From positions 1-64,000 of the forward strand of contig NZ_ABOX02000008.1 of the NCBI RefSeq assembly GCF_000172555.1: 64,000 bases of DNA, given 5' to 3'. The notes beneath the pieces were generated by a model, which worked only from the letters and a program-made list of their open reading frames with translations, did not search any database and had not been told where the DNA came from. Source of the DNA: Pedosphaera parvula Ellin514 (GTDB lineage Bacteria > Verrucomicrobiota > Verrucomicrobiia > Limisphaerales > Pedosphaeraceae). A program made the position numbers and the translations under genes. This document shows positions 21,061 to 27,783 of the stretch, one piece after another. How positions within the stretch are numbered: position 1 is the first letter of the stretch; each line of letters starts with the position of its first letter.

Positions 21061-21501
21061 TTACCATCCATATCTTATATCTCTGCTGACAATTGCCCAT
21101 TGATTGGAAATTCTGGTGCAGGAATATGTATAAAGTGCCCCATCATATGTTTTACCCGATACATTCACCAAAGCATTCTGAATGAGCCAACTGTCGCCAG
21201 AGACCAGAGTTGGCTGCGGAGGCCAATCTTCTCCATAAAAGACATCAATCGAAACTACGCGACGGTTCAGCCTGGTTTTGATCGCGCCCGGGAGATTCCT
21301 GAACGTTTTGAAGGACCAGTCTGGAAAGGTGCCGCGCCAGATTTCGCGGCGGACGATGGACTGGACGTCAGCCAGGTCTTCTGGAGCGAGATTGCCGTTT
21401 ATCCGAATGGGCTTATCCGGCGCATGCAGATAAAGGAAGGCACTGGTCGCCATAATCAAGATAGCGATCAGGGCAAAACCGAGTTTCTTCCTTTTGGTCA
21501 T
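21061..21501 (-). CDS. Small membrane-anchored protein, tandem family member C
   Basis: 146 residues from ATG 21501, aligned with the MTKRKK start of its paralogues. It has one N-terminal span. Family blocks are DKPIRINGNLAPEDLADVQS, REIWRGTFPDWSFKTFRNLPGAIK and TRISNQWAIVSR near the end. It contains an extra segment (GEDWPPQPTLVSGDSW) not found in the neighbour at 20523. Role unknown. Confidence 0.75.
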   Translation of the reverse strand: MTKRKKLGFALIAILIMATSAFLYLHAPDKPIRINGNLAPEDLADVQSIVRREIWRGTFPDWSFKTFRNLPGAIKTRLNRRVVSIDVFYGEDWPPQPTLVSGDSWLIQNALVNVSGKTYDGALYTYSCTRISNQWAIVSRDIRYGW

Positions 21502-21608
21502 GGATGAATATGAGTCAGATGTATTCGTGGAGAACAACTTTGTCGATGATGAAGAGGCGACACCGTGTATTCCGTGACGTTAATGCGGCGTTTTGAATGG
21601 GTTTTACC

Positions 21609-22016
21609 TCAGTCCGGCAGGACCATCTTGACAAGTATCCACTGATTGGTGCTTTTGACGCAGACATAACTACCGCCAAACTTGGATTTTCCATAAGTCA
21701 CGTTGGCCGTGGCGCTCCTGCGCCCATAAACAGGGTCGGCAGACGTGTCAAACGATTCAATCGAGTCGATGTGAAAGGTCAGGCCCCTTTTGATGTCCGT
21801 CGGCAAATACCTGAAAGTCTTAAACGAAAAATTAGAAAAGGTGTAATACCAGATTTCATGGTGCACGATCCTTTTGATGGCGGTTATATCTTTAGCGGAA
21901 AGCGGTTGCCCCTTCACCGTGATGGGCTTTTCGGTCGCACGAAAATAAAGGAAGGCTCCCGTCGCCAATATGAGAACAGCAGCCAAGCCCAAACCGAGTT
22001 TCATCCTTTTGGTCAT
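21609..22016 (-). CDS. Small membrane-anchored protein, tandem family member B
   Basis: 135 residues from ATG 22016 (MTKRMKLGLG); an ATG two codons upstream is also possible. One N-terminal span, then a diverged version of the family: KPITVKGQPLSAKDITAIKRIVHHEIW, SFKTFRYLPTDIKRG, and KSTNQWILVKM near the C-terminus. It is the most divergent of the four copies. It begins about 15 bp after the stop of member A. Confidence 0.73.
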   Translation of the reverse strand: MTKRMKLGLGLAAVLILATGAFLYFRATEKPITVKGQPLSAKDITAIKRIVHHEIWYYTFSNFSFKTFRYLPTDIKRGLTFHIDSIESFDTSADPVYGRRSATANVTYGKSKFGGSYVCVKSTNQWILVKMVLPD

Positions 22017-22031
22017 GCCCATGGAGATAAA

Positions 22032-22466
22032 TCAAAACAGATAGGAATCGATTTCACGCTTCGGCCCGACGCGCATGACGAAGACCCATTGATTGGAGCT
22101 TTTGGTGCAAGCGTAAGTGTAGATTCCTCCGCGCTCGGATTTTCCAAAAATAACATTGGCCGAGGCGGTCTTCGCCAGCCAACCAGGGTCGGTAAGCCCG
22201 TTAAGCGAATCGATCGAAACGATGCGAAGACTCCAACTCGTTTTGATGGCACCGGGAAGATTCTTGAATGTCTTGAACGAAAAATCAGGGAAGGCGCTGC
22301 GCCAGATTTCACGGTTCACGACGGATTTGATGGCGGCCACGTCCTCCGGCGAAAGCTTGCCGTTAATCTTGATGGGCCGCTCCGTCGCGCGAAAATAAAG
22401 GAAGGCGCCTGTCGCGAACACGAGGACAGCGATCAGGATGAAACTGAATTTCTTCCTTTTGGTCAT
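22032..22466 (-). CDS. Small membrane-anchored protein, tandem family member A
   Basis: 144 residues from ATG 22466 (MTKRKKFSFILIAVLVF). The longer frame upstream of this ATG has no counterpart in the paralogues and overlaps the transposase gene on the other strand, so it is left out. Family blocks RPIKINGKLSPEDVAAIKSVVNREIWR, SFKTFKNLPGAIKTS and CTKSSNQWVFVMR are present. First gene of the four-copy run. Confidence 0.75.
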   Translation of the reverse strand: MTKRKKFSFILIAVLVFATGAFLYFRATERPIKINGKLSPEDVAAIKSVVNREIWRSAFPDFSFKTFKNLPGAIKTSWSLRIVSIDSLNGLTDPGWLAKTASANVIFGKSERGGIYTYACTKSSNQWVFVMRVGPKREIDSYLF

Positions 22467-22603
22467 AGCTACAGAAAATGATTCTCCCAGTTTCAACATG
22501 CCTCGCAAGCAATAAGAAACAGGTGCGTTTTTGGGGTCAGCTCTCGCTGGTGAGCTCGGAATTATATACTTTACAAACACAACCAAACTGTTAGTCTCAC
22601 TCC

Positions 22604-23545
22604 ATGACAGAGAAGGAACTGAAACCCGAAGAGCTAAATCTAGTAACGCTGGCCGCCCAATATTCCGATGAGGACAAGGCGCGTGGATTACTTGAACAAA
22701 TGCGCTGGCCTGATGGCCCGATCTGTCCACATTGTAAGCACAACGAGGTTTACATCATCACTCCAAAGGCAACCAGCAAGTCGCCAGCTCGCAAAGGTCT
22801 GTATTGCTGTGCTGCTTGTCGCAAACAATTTACGGTAAAGGTCGGCACCATCTTTGAAGGCAGTCATATTCCCATTTCCAAATGGCTCATGGCTCTGTTC
22901 ATCATGTGCTCAAGCAAGAAGTCGATTAGCTCTCACCAATTGCACCGGATGTTGGGCATCACGTACAAAACCGCGTGGTTCATGACTCATCGCATCCGTT
23001 ATGCAATGGGTGGAGATAGCACCAAGAAGCTTTCCGGCATTGTCGAAGTAGATGAAACATTCGTTGGCGGCAAAGGTTCACGTGATACCACACTGGCGCG
23101 TAAAACGCCCGTGGTTGCACTGATTGAACGTGATGGCAATATGCGTACGGCAGTTGTGTCCAACGTCACCCAGAAGAATCTAGGCAGGGTGTTGAATGAA
23201 TCAGTGAGCAAGAATGCGATTGTGAACACCGACGAACACGGCGCTTATCGTAATCCCTTGAAGGAATTCAAACAGCACAACACCGTTGTCCATTCCAAAT
23301 ACGAATACAGCCGCAAGCTGGATGATGGAACGAAAGCGGGAATCAATACTTGCGAATCCTTTTTCAGCCTGCTTAAGCGTGGCGTTTATGGTAGCTGGCA
23401 CCATGTGAGCCGTGAGCATCTGCCAAAGTATGCGGGTGAATTTGAATTTCGCTGGAACAATCGCAAGGTAACAGACGGCGAGCGCATGGTTGCAGCCGTT
23501 GGCCGGATTGAAGGCAAACGGCTGACCTATCGCCAAGCGATCTGA
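22604..23545 (+). CDS. IS1595-family (ISXO2-like) transposase
   Basis: 313 residues. The N-terminus has a zinc ribbon (CPHCKHNEVY...CCAACRKQF), followed by a helical region (HQLHRMLGITYKTAWFMTHRIRYAM). The DDE-type catalytic core has IVEVDETFVGGK, then IVNTDEHGAY, then the terminal TCESFFSLLKRGVYGSWHHVS, which is the family signature. Length is normal and the frame is intact. I could not find matching terminal inverted repeats on either side within a few hundred bases, so the element borders are undefined and it may be immobile. Confidence 0.92.
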   Translation: MTEKELKPEELNLVTLAAQYSDEDKARGLLEQMRWPDGPICPHCKHNEVYIITPKATSKSPARKGLYCCAACRKQFTVKVGTIFEGSHIPISKWLMALFIMCSSKKSISSHQLHRMLGITYKTAWFMTHRIRYAMGGDSTKKLSGIVEVDETFVGGKGSRDTTLARKTPVVALIERDGNMRTAVVSNVTQKNLGRVLNESVSKNAIVNTDEHGAYRNPLKEFKQHNTVVHSKYEYSRKLDDGTKAGINTCESFFSLLKRGVYGSWHHVSREHLPKYAGEFEFRWNNRKVTDGERMVAAVGRIEGKRLTYRQAI

Positions 23546-23862: not shown

Positions 23863-23887
23863 GCTTAGTTTCTTAAGCATACTAAGC
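23863..23887. promoter_or_regulatory. Inverted repeat upstream of the Panacea toxin-antitoxin pair
   Basis: GCTTAGT and ACTAAGC form a 7-bp inverted repeat separated by 11 bp, centred about 70 bp before the first start codon at 23947. It could be the operator for autoregulation by the antitoxin. A second small repeat GGGTT-AA-AACCC lies at 23895-23906. Confidence 0.4.
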
Positions 23888-23946: not shown

Positions 23947-24543
23947 ATGAACAAAACCGTTACCTATACTCATTCTATGAGAATAACCCCCCCCGCTTTT
24001 AACGGCGATAGGGTGAAGGCGGAAAACCTTATCATCTACGTTTGCCAAAAGATGGAGAATTGCCCTGGATTTGGGGCGATCCTTCTAAACAAAGTCCTGT
24101 ACTATATCGACCATGTTCATTATCTGAAACATGGTAAGAAGCTTACCGGATTCAAATATATTAAACAGCGGCTTGGCCCAACGCCAAAGCCATCGGAATT
24201 CTTGCCCATTCGGGAGAGCTTGATTGACAATGAAAAGATTAACGAAAAGCCAGTAGAGTTTTTTGGCAGGGTCCAGAAACGGCTTTCTGCGCTAACAGAG
24301 CCAGACCTTAAAGGGTTCACTGTGGATGAAATCTCATTGATTGATAATGTTATTTCCGCCCTTTCTCCATTCAACGGCAAAGCCATAAGCGACGTAACCC
24401 ATGAGGAGCTATCATGGAAATTTGCGGGAATGATGGAAGAGCTTCCCGACTATGCTTATCTGCTTACAGAAGCCCCTCTTAACGAAGATGACCTAACTTG
24501 GGCGCGCAAAACAATCACCGAATATGCAGGTAACGTTCGTTAG
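23947..24543 (+). CDS. Panacea-domain (DUF4065/SocA-like) antitoxin
   Basis: 198 residues. From about residue 20 it follows the DUF4065 pattern: VKAENLIIYVCQKMENCPGFGAILLNKVLYYIDHVHYLKHGKKLTGFKYIKQRLGPTPK, the usual layout of short helix, 'L-K-LLY--D' and 'G--Y---GPVP'. Proteins of this family (SocA, PanA) act as antitoxins for diverse toxins. AAAGAGG lies 7 bp upstream of ATG 23947; an ATG at residue 11 is a possible second start. The 3' end overlaps the next gene by 20 bp, the usual coupling of a two-gene toxin-antitoxin operon. Confidence 0.8.
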   Translation: MNKTVTYTHSMRITPPAFNGDRVKAENLIIYVCQKMENCPGFGAILLNKVLYYIDHVHYLKHGKKLTGFKYIKQRLGPTPKPSEFLPIRESLIDNEKINEKPVEFFGRVQKRLSALTEPDLKGFTVDEISLIDNVISALSPFNGKAISDVTHEELSWKFAGMMEELPDYAYLLTEAPLNEDDLTWARKTITEYAGNVR

Positions 24544-24808
24544 AGAAAATCAATTTGATGACGCAATAGAACGCATATCTCAAACTCATAGCAGAATGGA
24601 TGAGTTAGATATGGCAATTGAATGGGGACTTTCAAGAAACCCAAAGCATTTTTACAACATTTCCAAAGATTTTTATGTTTGGAAAACTGAAAGGCTTGTG
24701 GCTGGCATCCCTCAGTTAATTATTGTTTACCGGTTCGTGGAAATAATTAACCAAATTATTCTCATTTCCGTTTCGGAAATTCCCGATTCAGCATCTGAAG
24801 AAGAATAA
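24524..24808 (+). CDS. Probable toxin partner of the Panacea antitoxin
   Basis: 94 residues, starting inside the antitoxin gene (20-bp overlap). The C-terminal half, YVWKTERLVAGIPQLIIVYRFVEIINQIILISVSEI, resembles the strand-rich core of small RelE/ParE-like proteins, with the N-terminal helix around MDELDMAIEWGLSRNP. This assignment is tentative; no catalytic residues can be named with confidence. The role as toxin is inferred mostly from size, overlap and the antitoxin type next to it. A terminator follows at 24832. Confidence 0.65.
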   Translation: MQVTFVRENQFDDAIERISQTHSRMDELDMAIEWGLSRNPKHFYNISKDFYVWKTERLVAGIPQLIIVYRFVEIINQIILISVSEIPDSASEEE

Positions 24809-24831: not shown

Positions 24832-24861
24832 CCCCGCCAGATAATTCTGGTGGGGTTTTTA
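24832..24861 (+). terminator. Rho-independent terminator of the Panacea operon
   Basis: CCCCGCCAG, a 6-nt loop and CTGGTGGGG form a 9-bp stem with one G-T pair, followed by TTTTT and an A/T-rich tail. It lies 23 bp after the toxin stop. Confidence 0.85.
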
Positions 24862-26974: not shown

Positions 26975-26991
26975 GGTGCCAAAGTGGCACC
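26975..26991. promoter_or_regulatory. Palindromic operator candidate upstream of the DUF1778/GNAT pair
   Basis: GGTGCCA-AAG-TGGCACC is a perfect 7-bp inverted repeat centred about 17 bp before the antitoxin start codon (27000). Ribbon-helix-helix antitoxins usually bind such palindromes over their own promoter, so autoregulation is likely. Confidence 0.6.
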
Positions 26992-26999
26992 ATGTATTT

Positions 27000-27284
27000 A
27001 TGGCCAGCACGACTGATGAATCAAAAGCCAGGATTACGGCGCGGATCACTCAAGAGATGCGCGGGACCCTGGAGCAGGCGGCAGAGCTGCTGGGGGCCAC
27101 GGTGAATCAATTCGTGGTGCAGGCGGCCTATCAGGAAGCACAGCGGGTGTTGGAGCGGGAATCGGTGATTCGCCTTTCACAACAGGATGCGAAGAAGGTG
27201 TTCGAGCTGTTGGAACATCCGCCGAAACCAAACAAGCAGTTAAAGGAGGCAGTCCGCGCTTTCAAGAGGTCGGTGCGTGCTTGA
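27000..27284 (+). CDS. DUF1778 ribbon-helix-helix antitoxin (TacA-like)
   Basis: 94 residues from ATG 27000. The N-terminal half is the RHH DNA-binding part: KARITARITQEMRGTLEQAAELLGATVNQFVVQAAYQEAQRVLE. The C-terminal half (LSQQDAKKVFELLEHPPKPN) is the toxin-binding tail, with the 'F--LL--PP-PN' pattern of TacA-like antitoxins. A start at 26976 would place the operator palindrome inside the coding region, so ATG 27000 is preferred. Its 3' end overlaps the toxin gene by 8 bp. Confidence 0.9.
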   Translation: MASTTDESKARITARITQEMRGTLEQAAELLGATVNQFVVQAAYQEAQRVLERESVIRLSQQDAKKVFELLEHPPKPNKQLKEAVRAFKRSVRA

Positions 27285-27783
27285 ACTCGAAGCGCTTTCC
27301 AAGGCGCACGACCGGGAGGGCTTTGACTGTGGCAGTGAGCCTCTGAATCTTTTTCTGAAGCAGACAGCACGCCAGCATGCCGAGCGCGGCATTTCCAAAA
27401 CGTTTGTGCTGGTTGAAGAGGAGGCGATGGCACCAAAGCCCATCCTCGGTTTTTATTCGCTGAACATCTGCCAGCTGGCAGCGGAGGAATTGCCACCGGA
27501 AATAGCGAAGAAATTTCCCCGCAATGTGCCTGGACTCAAGCTGGGCCGTTTGGCAGTTTCCAGGAATTCTCACCGCCAGGGGATTGGGAGAGTTTTGCTT
27601 GTGGCGGCGATGAAGGAAGTTGTTGCGATTGCAGAAAAAGCCGGCGGCATCGGATTGTTCGTGGATGCTAAAGATGAAACAGCAAAGCGGTATTACGAAC
27701 AATTTGGGTTTGTGCCGTTGCCATCCAATGAACTGCAGCTTTTTCTGCCAATGAAGACAATTAAAGAAGTATTGAGGGAATGA
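27277..27783 (+). CDS. GNAT-family toxin (TacT-like acetyltransferase)
   Basis: 168 residues from GTG 27277 (GTG CTT GAA), overlapping the antitoxin gene. It begins LEALSKAHDREGFDCGSEPLNLFLKQTARQHAER, the typical substrate-binding N-terminus of TacT-like toxins. The acetyl-CoA loop is RNSHRQGIGRVLL, and the C-terminal YYEQFGFVPLP is also diagnostic. Such toxins acetylate aminoacyl-tRNAs and halt translation; the DUF1778 partner masks them. A complete and apparently intact module. Confidence 0.9.
   Translation: MLELEALSKAHDREGFDCGSEPLNLFLKQTARQHAERGISKTFVLVEEEAMAPKPILGFYSLNICQLAAEELPPEIAKKFPRNVPGLKLGRLAVSRNSHRQGIGRVLLVAAMKEVVAIAEKAGGIGLFVDAKDETAKRYYEQFGFVPLPSNELQLFLPMKTIKEVLRE

Follow-up and report, generated by a model that had tools for sequence, protein, structure and literature searches.

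The overlapping genes panA and panT of Pedosphaera parvula Ellin514 probably form a type II toxin–antitoxin operon of the PanAT kind, in which PanT would act as a non-catalytic inhibitor belonging to the RelE/ParE superfamily. A Panacea gene accompanied by a small PanT-like partner recurs in three phyla, and we may take this recurrence as a starting point to understand what kind of protein PanT is.

Organization of the locus

The window, as we name the whole stretch of DNA that was analysed, comprises 64,000 nucleotides of contig NZ_ABOX02000008.1. The relevant features are as follows.

23947..24543, forward strand: panA, stand-alone Panacea (SocA-like, DUF4065) antitoxin, 198 aa, matching PF13274
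24085..24420, forward strand: Panacea domain core of panA (residues 47-158)
24524..24808, forward strand: panT, 94 aa, putative toxin with a predicted RelE/ParE fold
24524..24543, forward strand: panA/panT overlap, 20 bp
24832..24855, forward strand: intrinsic terminator hairpin, then a T-run (fold energy compared with shuffles)
23863..23887, no strand assigned: inverted repeat GCTTAGT/ACTAAGC, 7 bp with an 11-nt spacer, a possible operator that does not rise above chance

The two open reading frames, with the overlap and the 94-residue partner described in the initial annotation, were confirmed. Both genes start with ATG, the motif AGAGG standing five bases 5′ of that of panA, and the 20-bp overlap is consistent with translational coupling. 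The hairpin downstream of panT, which had been taken for a clean terminator, deserves this name: it combines 10 pairs with its T-run at -20 kcal/mol (z -5.39), and none of 200 shuffled sequences was as stable. The inverted repeat reported upstream of panA is indeed present, but it is at chance level (shuffling gives P about 0.16, and the z of the fold is -1.6), and it was dropped as evidence for an operator. A two-gene unit with a small adjoining partner, kept across species, is what characterizes PanAT operons, and this is what is found here. The pair is poorer in G+C (0.446 for panA, 0.361 for panT) than the window (0.527), and thus fits acquisition by transfer. The genome assembly, 7.4 Mb in 102 contigs, contains a single Panacea gene, and panT is also single-copy.

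The neighbourhood of the pair has features of its own. Just upstream, at 22604-23545, lies an IS1595/ISXO2-type transposase gene, around which no perfect terminal repeats of at least 10 bp were found. The minus strand at 21061-22730 carries three similar tandem open reading frames, with no Pfam match, that share a membrane-anchor-like start, KxxxxLxAxLxxATxAFLY. A second toxin–antitoxin pair is located 2.2 kb downstream of panA and panT, where a TacA1-like (DUF1778) antitoxin gene at 26976-27284 (PF08681, 1.2e-23) overlaps that of a GNAT acetyltransferase at 27277-27783.

The antitoxin

The assignment of the first gene to the DUF4065/SocA-like antitoxins holds well: PanA matches PF13274 with an E-value of 1.3e-15, at 58.7 bits for a curated family cut-off of 25.7, and covers the full profile (1-113). 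It has the SocA-type domain of SocAB, a type VI system where the antitoxin SocA assists in the degradation of the toxin SocB. Aligned with its HTH-Panacea relatives of about 260 aa, it is seen to be devoid of the N-terminal helix-turn-helix carried by most of them. A Panacea protein from a Helicobacter canis prophage (L195:1195-1979) displays a C-terminal tail like that of PanA; its partner, an unannotated protein of 87 aa, is of another sequence type.

A putative toxin branch with three known members

The partner had been presented as unrecognised, and so it is in the libraries at hand. Compared with Pfam, NCBIfam, PHROG and PADLOC, PanT matched no family beyond chance, with no Pfam match even at an E-value of 10; none of the RelE/ParE families of Pfam (PF06296, PF05016, PF05015, PF15738 and others) came over its curated cut-off; and PDB sequences gave no match, the partial similarity to 5t10/5t11 (E 0.3) not being significant. 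At an E-value of 1e-3, PanT alone retrieved nothing from plasmids, phages, viral contigs, genome contigs or the genomes of its phylum (387) and order (146). One of these searches, extended to an E-value of 1, yielded weak matches, and those inspected (L037 and L144, for example) were chance frames.

The search for the same pairing in other genomes, which had been suggested as a check, succeeded when the neighbourhoods of Panacea genes were read. In Planctomycetota, a 98-aa homolog of PanT (L185:2021-2314) overlaps by 8 bp the gene of a 190-aa Panacea protein, and in Desulfobacterota, a 91-aa homolog (L203:2071-2343) begins 6 bp after a Panacea open reading frame, the phylum names being those of the records that led to these genome sets. 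The score of the L185 protein against PanT was beaten by one of 20,000 shuffles. The L203 protein was retrieved at 5.3e-6 with L185 alone, and at 2.5e-7 once PanT was added to the profile. When each member was left out in turn, the L185 and L203 proteins beat all shuffles by more than 14 bits, while PanT ranked second against 20,000 shuffles. The equivalent placement of homologous open reading frames in two further phyla supports panT as a real gene, and with these two relatives its branch has three known members. Weak plasmid matches of the L203 protein (Ensifer, Rhizobium) were set aside, there being no recognisable Panacea neighbour. In a tree of the antitoxins, that of L185 groups with that of L203 and PanA lies near antitoxins paired with RelE-like proteins; a single clade for the three antitoxins with small toxins gave p-AU 0.186, so that a single origin is neither shown nor rejected.

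RelE-like partners of related antitoxins

A scan with the antitoxin alignment produced 441 related loci from many phyla, including Patescibacteria and Chlamydiota, the best 80 of which were read for their partners. Typically, among these 80, a protein of about 260 aa, which on visual inspection carries an XRE-type helix-turn-helix ahead of its Panacea domain, precedes a RelE-like protein of 110-140 aa, with an overlap that usually extends from a few to about twenty bases. About 100 RelE-like partners were found, and 61 intact ones were collected. Their alignment (A5) matches HigB-2 toxins of the PDB (E 0.002) and, weakly, models of RelE/StbE, YoeB and YafQ; the toxins of the HTH-Panacea family represented by L055-L134 have no convincing match in Pfam or NCBIfam. 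In another near relative, L184, the partner is a PF06296 RelE toxin (27.6 bits for a cut-off of 27). Since RelE-like proteins follow most of the Panacea genes that were read, and since L184 adds a pair with a named family, Panacea antitoxins of this part of the family have, as a rule, a RelE-like partner.

The initial annotation had thought of a new pairing, and here it must be corrected. A survey of Panacea antitoxins paired 88 toxin clusters with them, and ParE hits were among these toxins (PMC8832971); together with the hundred or so RelE-like partners, this establishes that Panacea paired with a toxin of the RelE/ParE fold is not new. Within the phylum of P. parvula, three loci (L008, L012 and L013) have yet another arrangement, a Panacea gene followed by a protein of about 150 aa with a WxDxHHKxxP-like end.

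The predicted fold of PanT

The likeness of PanT to RelE/ParE folds, noticed in outline at the start, is now backed by a profile and by a model. The profile built from the three members of the branch was run against 1344 open reading frames of 80-160 aa, and it put the RelE-like partners of Panacea antitoxins first (AUC 0.986; 19 of the top 20), when column-shuffled versions reached at most an AUC of 0.918 and 11 of the top 20. The signal of PanT by itself is weak (AUC 0.87, where shuffles average 0.71 with an sd of 0.10), the closest sub-profile gave P about 0.04, and the profile of the RelE-like partners did not recover PanT directly, so that the link with RelE rests on the three-sequence profile.

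Prediction of the structure, also proposed beforehand as a check, gave a RelE/ParE-like fold. The AlphaFold2 model was guided by an alignment (A9) of the three proteins of the branch with 17 RelE-like partners (pLDDT 85.5, pTM 0.74), and its topology, b1-a1-a2-b-b2-b3-b4, ends without a C-terminal helix. Its best Foldseek matches were HigB2, PfiT, ParE2 and RelE. VIA-align Z scores were 11.1 for PfiT of the Pf4 prophage (9w3a), 11.0 for RelE1, 10.5 for HigB2 and 10.2 for ParE; the ribosome-dependent mRNases RelE and HigB2 fall in the range 9-11, and the ParE gyrase inhibitors at about 10. PanT is thus predicted to have the RelE/ParE (BECR) fold, and the model is support rather than independent proof, because RelE-like rows were present in the guiding alignment. 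From a single sequence, the model was poor and all-helical. It might be argued from this, and from the want of a direct family match, that PanT is an unrelated accessory protein on which the alignment imposed its fold. We consider this very improbable: the three-sequence profile contains no RelE-like sequence, and still RelE-like Panacea partners make up 19 of its first 20 matches, while the position and size of panT fit a toxin.

Active site, charge and mode of action

The 17 RelE-like partners included in A9 have four invariant basic positions (K, R, R, K), which align with basic residues of HigB-2. At these positions PanT reads K54, E56, I66 and I86; the L185 protein keeps one basic residue and the L203 protein none, and PanT therefore does not have the conserved basic catalytic residues of the RelE/HigB mRNases. 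Besides the start methionine, the three proteins share V6, F11, E27, E33, L36, P40, Y69, F71 and L80, with no Lys, Arg or His common to all three. They are short, ending just after the last strand, and PanT is deprived of the C-terminal region that is important in some ParE and RelE proteins. Their isoelectric points are 4.7 (4.71 for PanT itself), 6.1 and 4.7, to be compared with a median of 9.5 (range 7.66-9.93) for 61 RelE-like partners.

The mRNase families of the BECR fold differ in their active sites, and PanT could be a RelE-type mRNase with other catalytic residues, like YafQ or YoeB, that still cuts mRNA on the ribosome. Its predicted fold, the retention of K54 and the RelE-like nature of the nearest Panacea partners would agree with this, as would the fact that mRNases make up the majority of BECR-fold families (PMC11980606). 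A catalytic centre of this kind is, however, difficult to reconcile with three homologs that have no Lys, Arg or His in common, and with an acidic protein where the RelE-like partners are basic. The loss of the basic positions, the short C-terminus and the acidic isoelectric point make a RelE-type ribosome-dependent RNase unlikely.

The same losses could also be the marks of decay, PanT being a relic, no longer active, of a RelE-like toxin that has stayed next to its antitoxin, and the long branch of PanA in the tree and the absence of a close PanT homolog from the other genomes sampled go in this direction. But the frame of panT is intact and its terminator clean, and the homologs of two other phyla are likewise reduced and non-basic, an indication that selection has favoured this form. 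We hold decay to be quite improbable, less credible than an unconventional mRNase.

A non-catalytic, ParE-like inhibitor appears more likely than either. ParE shares the fold, does not have the catalytic residues and inhibits gyrase (PMC11980606), and this makes such an inhibitor the best guess for PanT. PanA, a stand-alone Panacea domain, would be made first and would bind PanT directly; by analogy, this direct binding is likely, as direct neutralisation of the toxin is described for stand-alone Panacea antitoxins (PMC10440598). PanT, a predicted BECR-fold protein that bears a net negative charge and has lost most of the basic residues of the RelE/HigB RNase active site, would bind its target and leave RNA uncut, in the manner of the ParE gyrase inhibitors, with gyrase as the leading candidate. 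We infer that PanT is toxic and that PanA neutralises it. A wider scenario, which we find rather improbable, is that an acidic, catalytically stripped RelE/ParE branch came to serve as the toxin of Panacea pairs in three phyla or more, with a target that would not be mRNA and might be new for the fold.

Relationship with known systems

Like the PanAT type II systems already described (PMC8832971, PMC10440598), the locus associates a Panacea protein over the family cut-off with a small adjoining partner, the antitoxin coming first, and it adds to this kind; it departs from them in that the partner, a putative toxin, belongs to no family named in the libraries searched. With the HTH-Panacea/RelE-like pairs (L055-L134 and others), it has in common a related Panacea domain, the gene order, a short overlap and a partner linked by profile. 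It differs from them in an antitoxin without helix-turn-helix and, above all, in the toxin branch, which is its unusual part: PanT is shorter and acidic, and has lost three of the four invariant basic active-site positions. PanT resembles the RelE/HigB2 mRNases (PF06296, PF05016, PF05015) in its predicted fold, but not in family match, conserved active site or C-terminal helix. The comparison with ParE (PF05016) and PfiT goes further, as the RNase residues are missing from PanT as reported for ParE; yet sequence matches to these proteins are lacking, and the antitoxin is Panacea, not ParD or PfiA.

A small, unannotated branch of putative toxins is thus added to the Panacea network. Current family libraries miss this branch as well as the far larger HTH-Panacea/RelE-like family that surrounds it, and the compact 94-aa PanT, with its antitoxin, offers a way to ask if toxicity can persist in a BECR fold that has no RNase residues, and on which target it would act.
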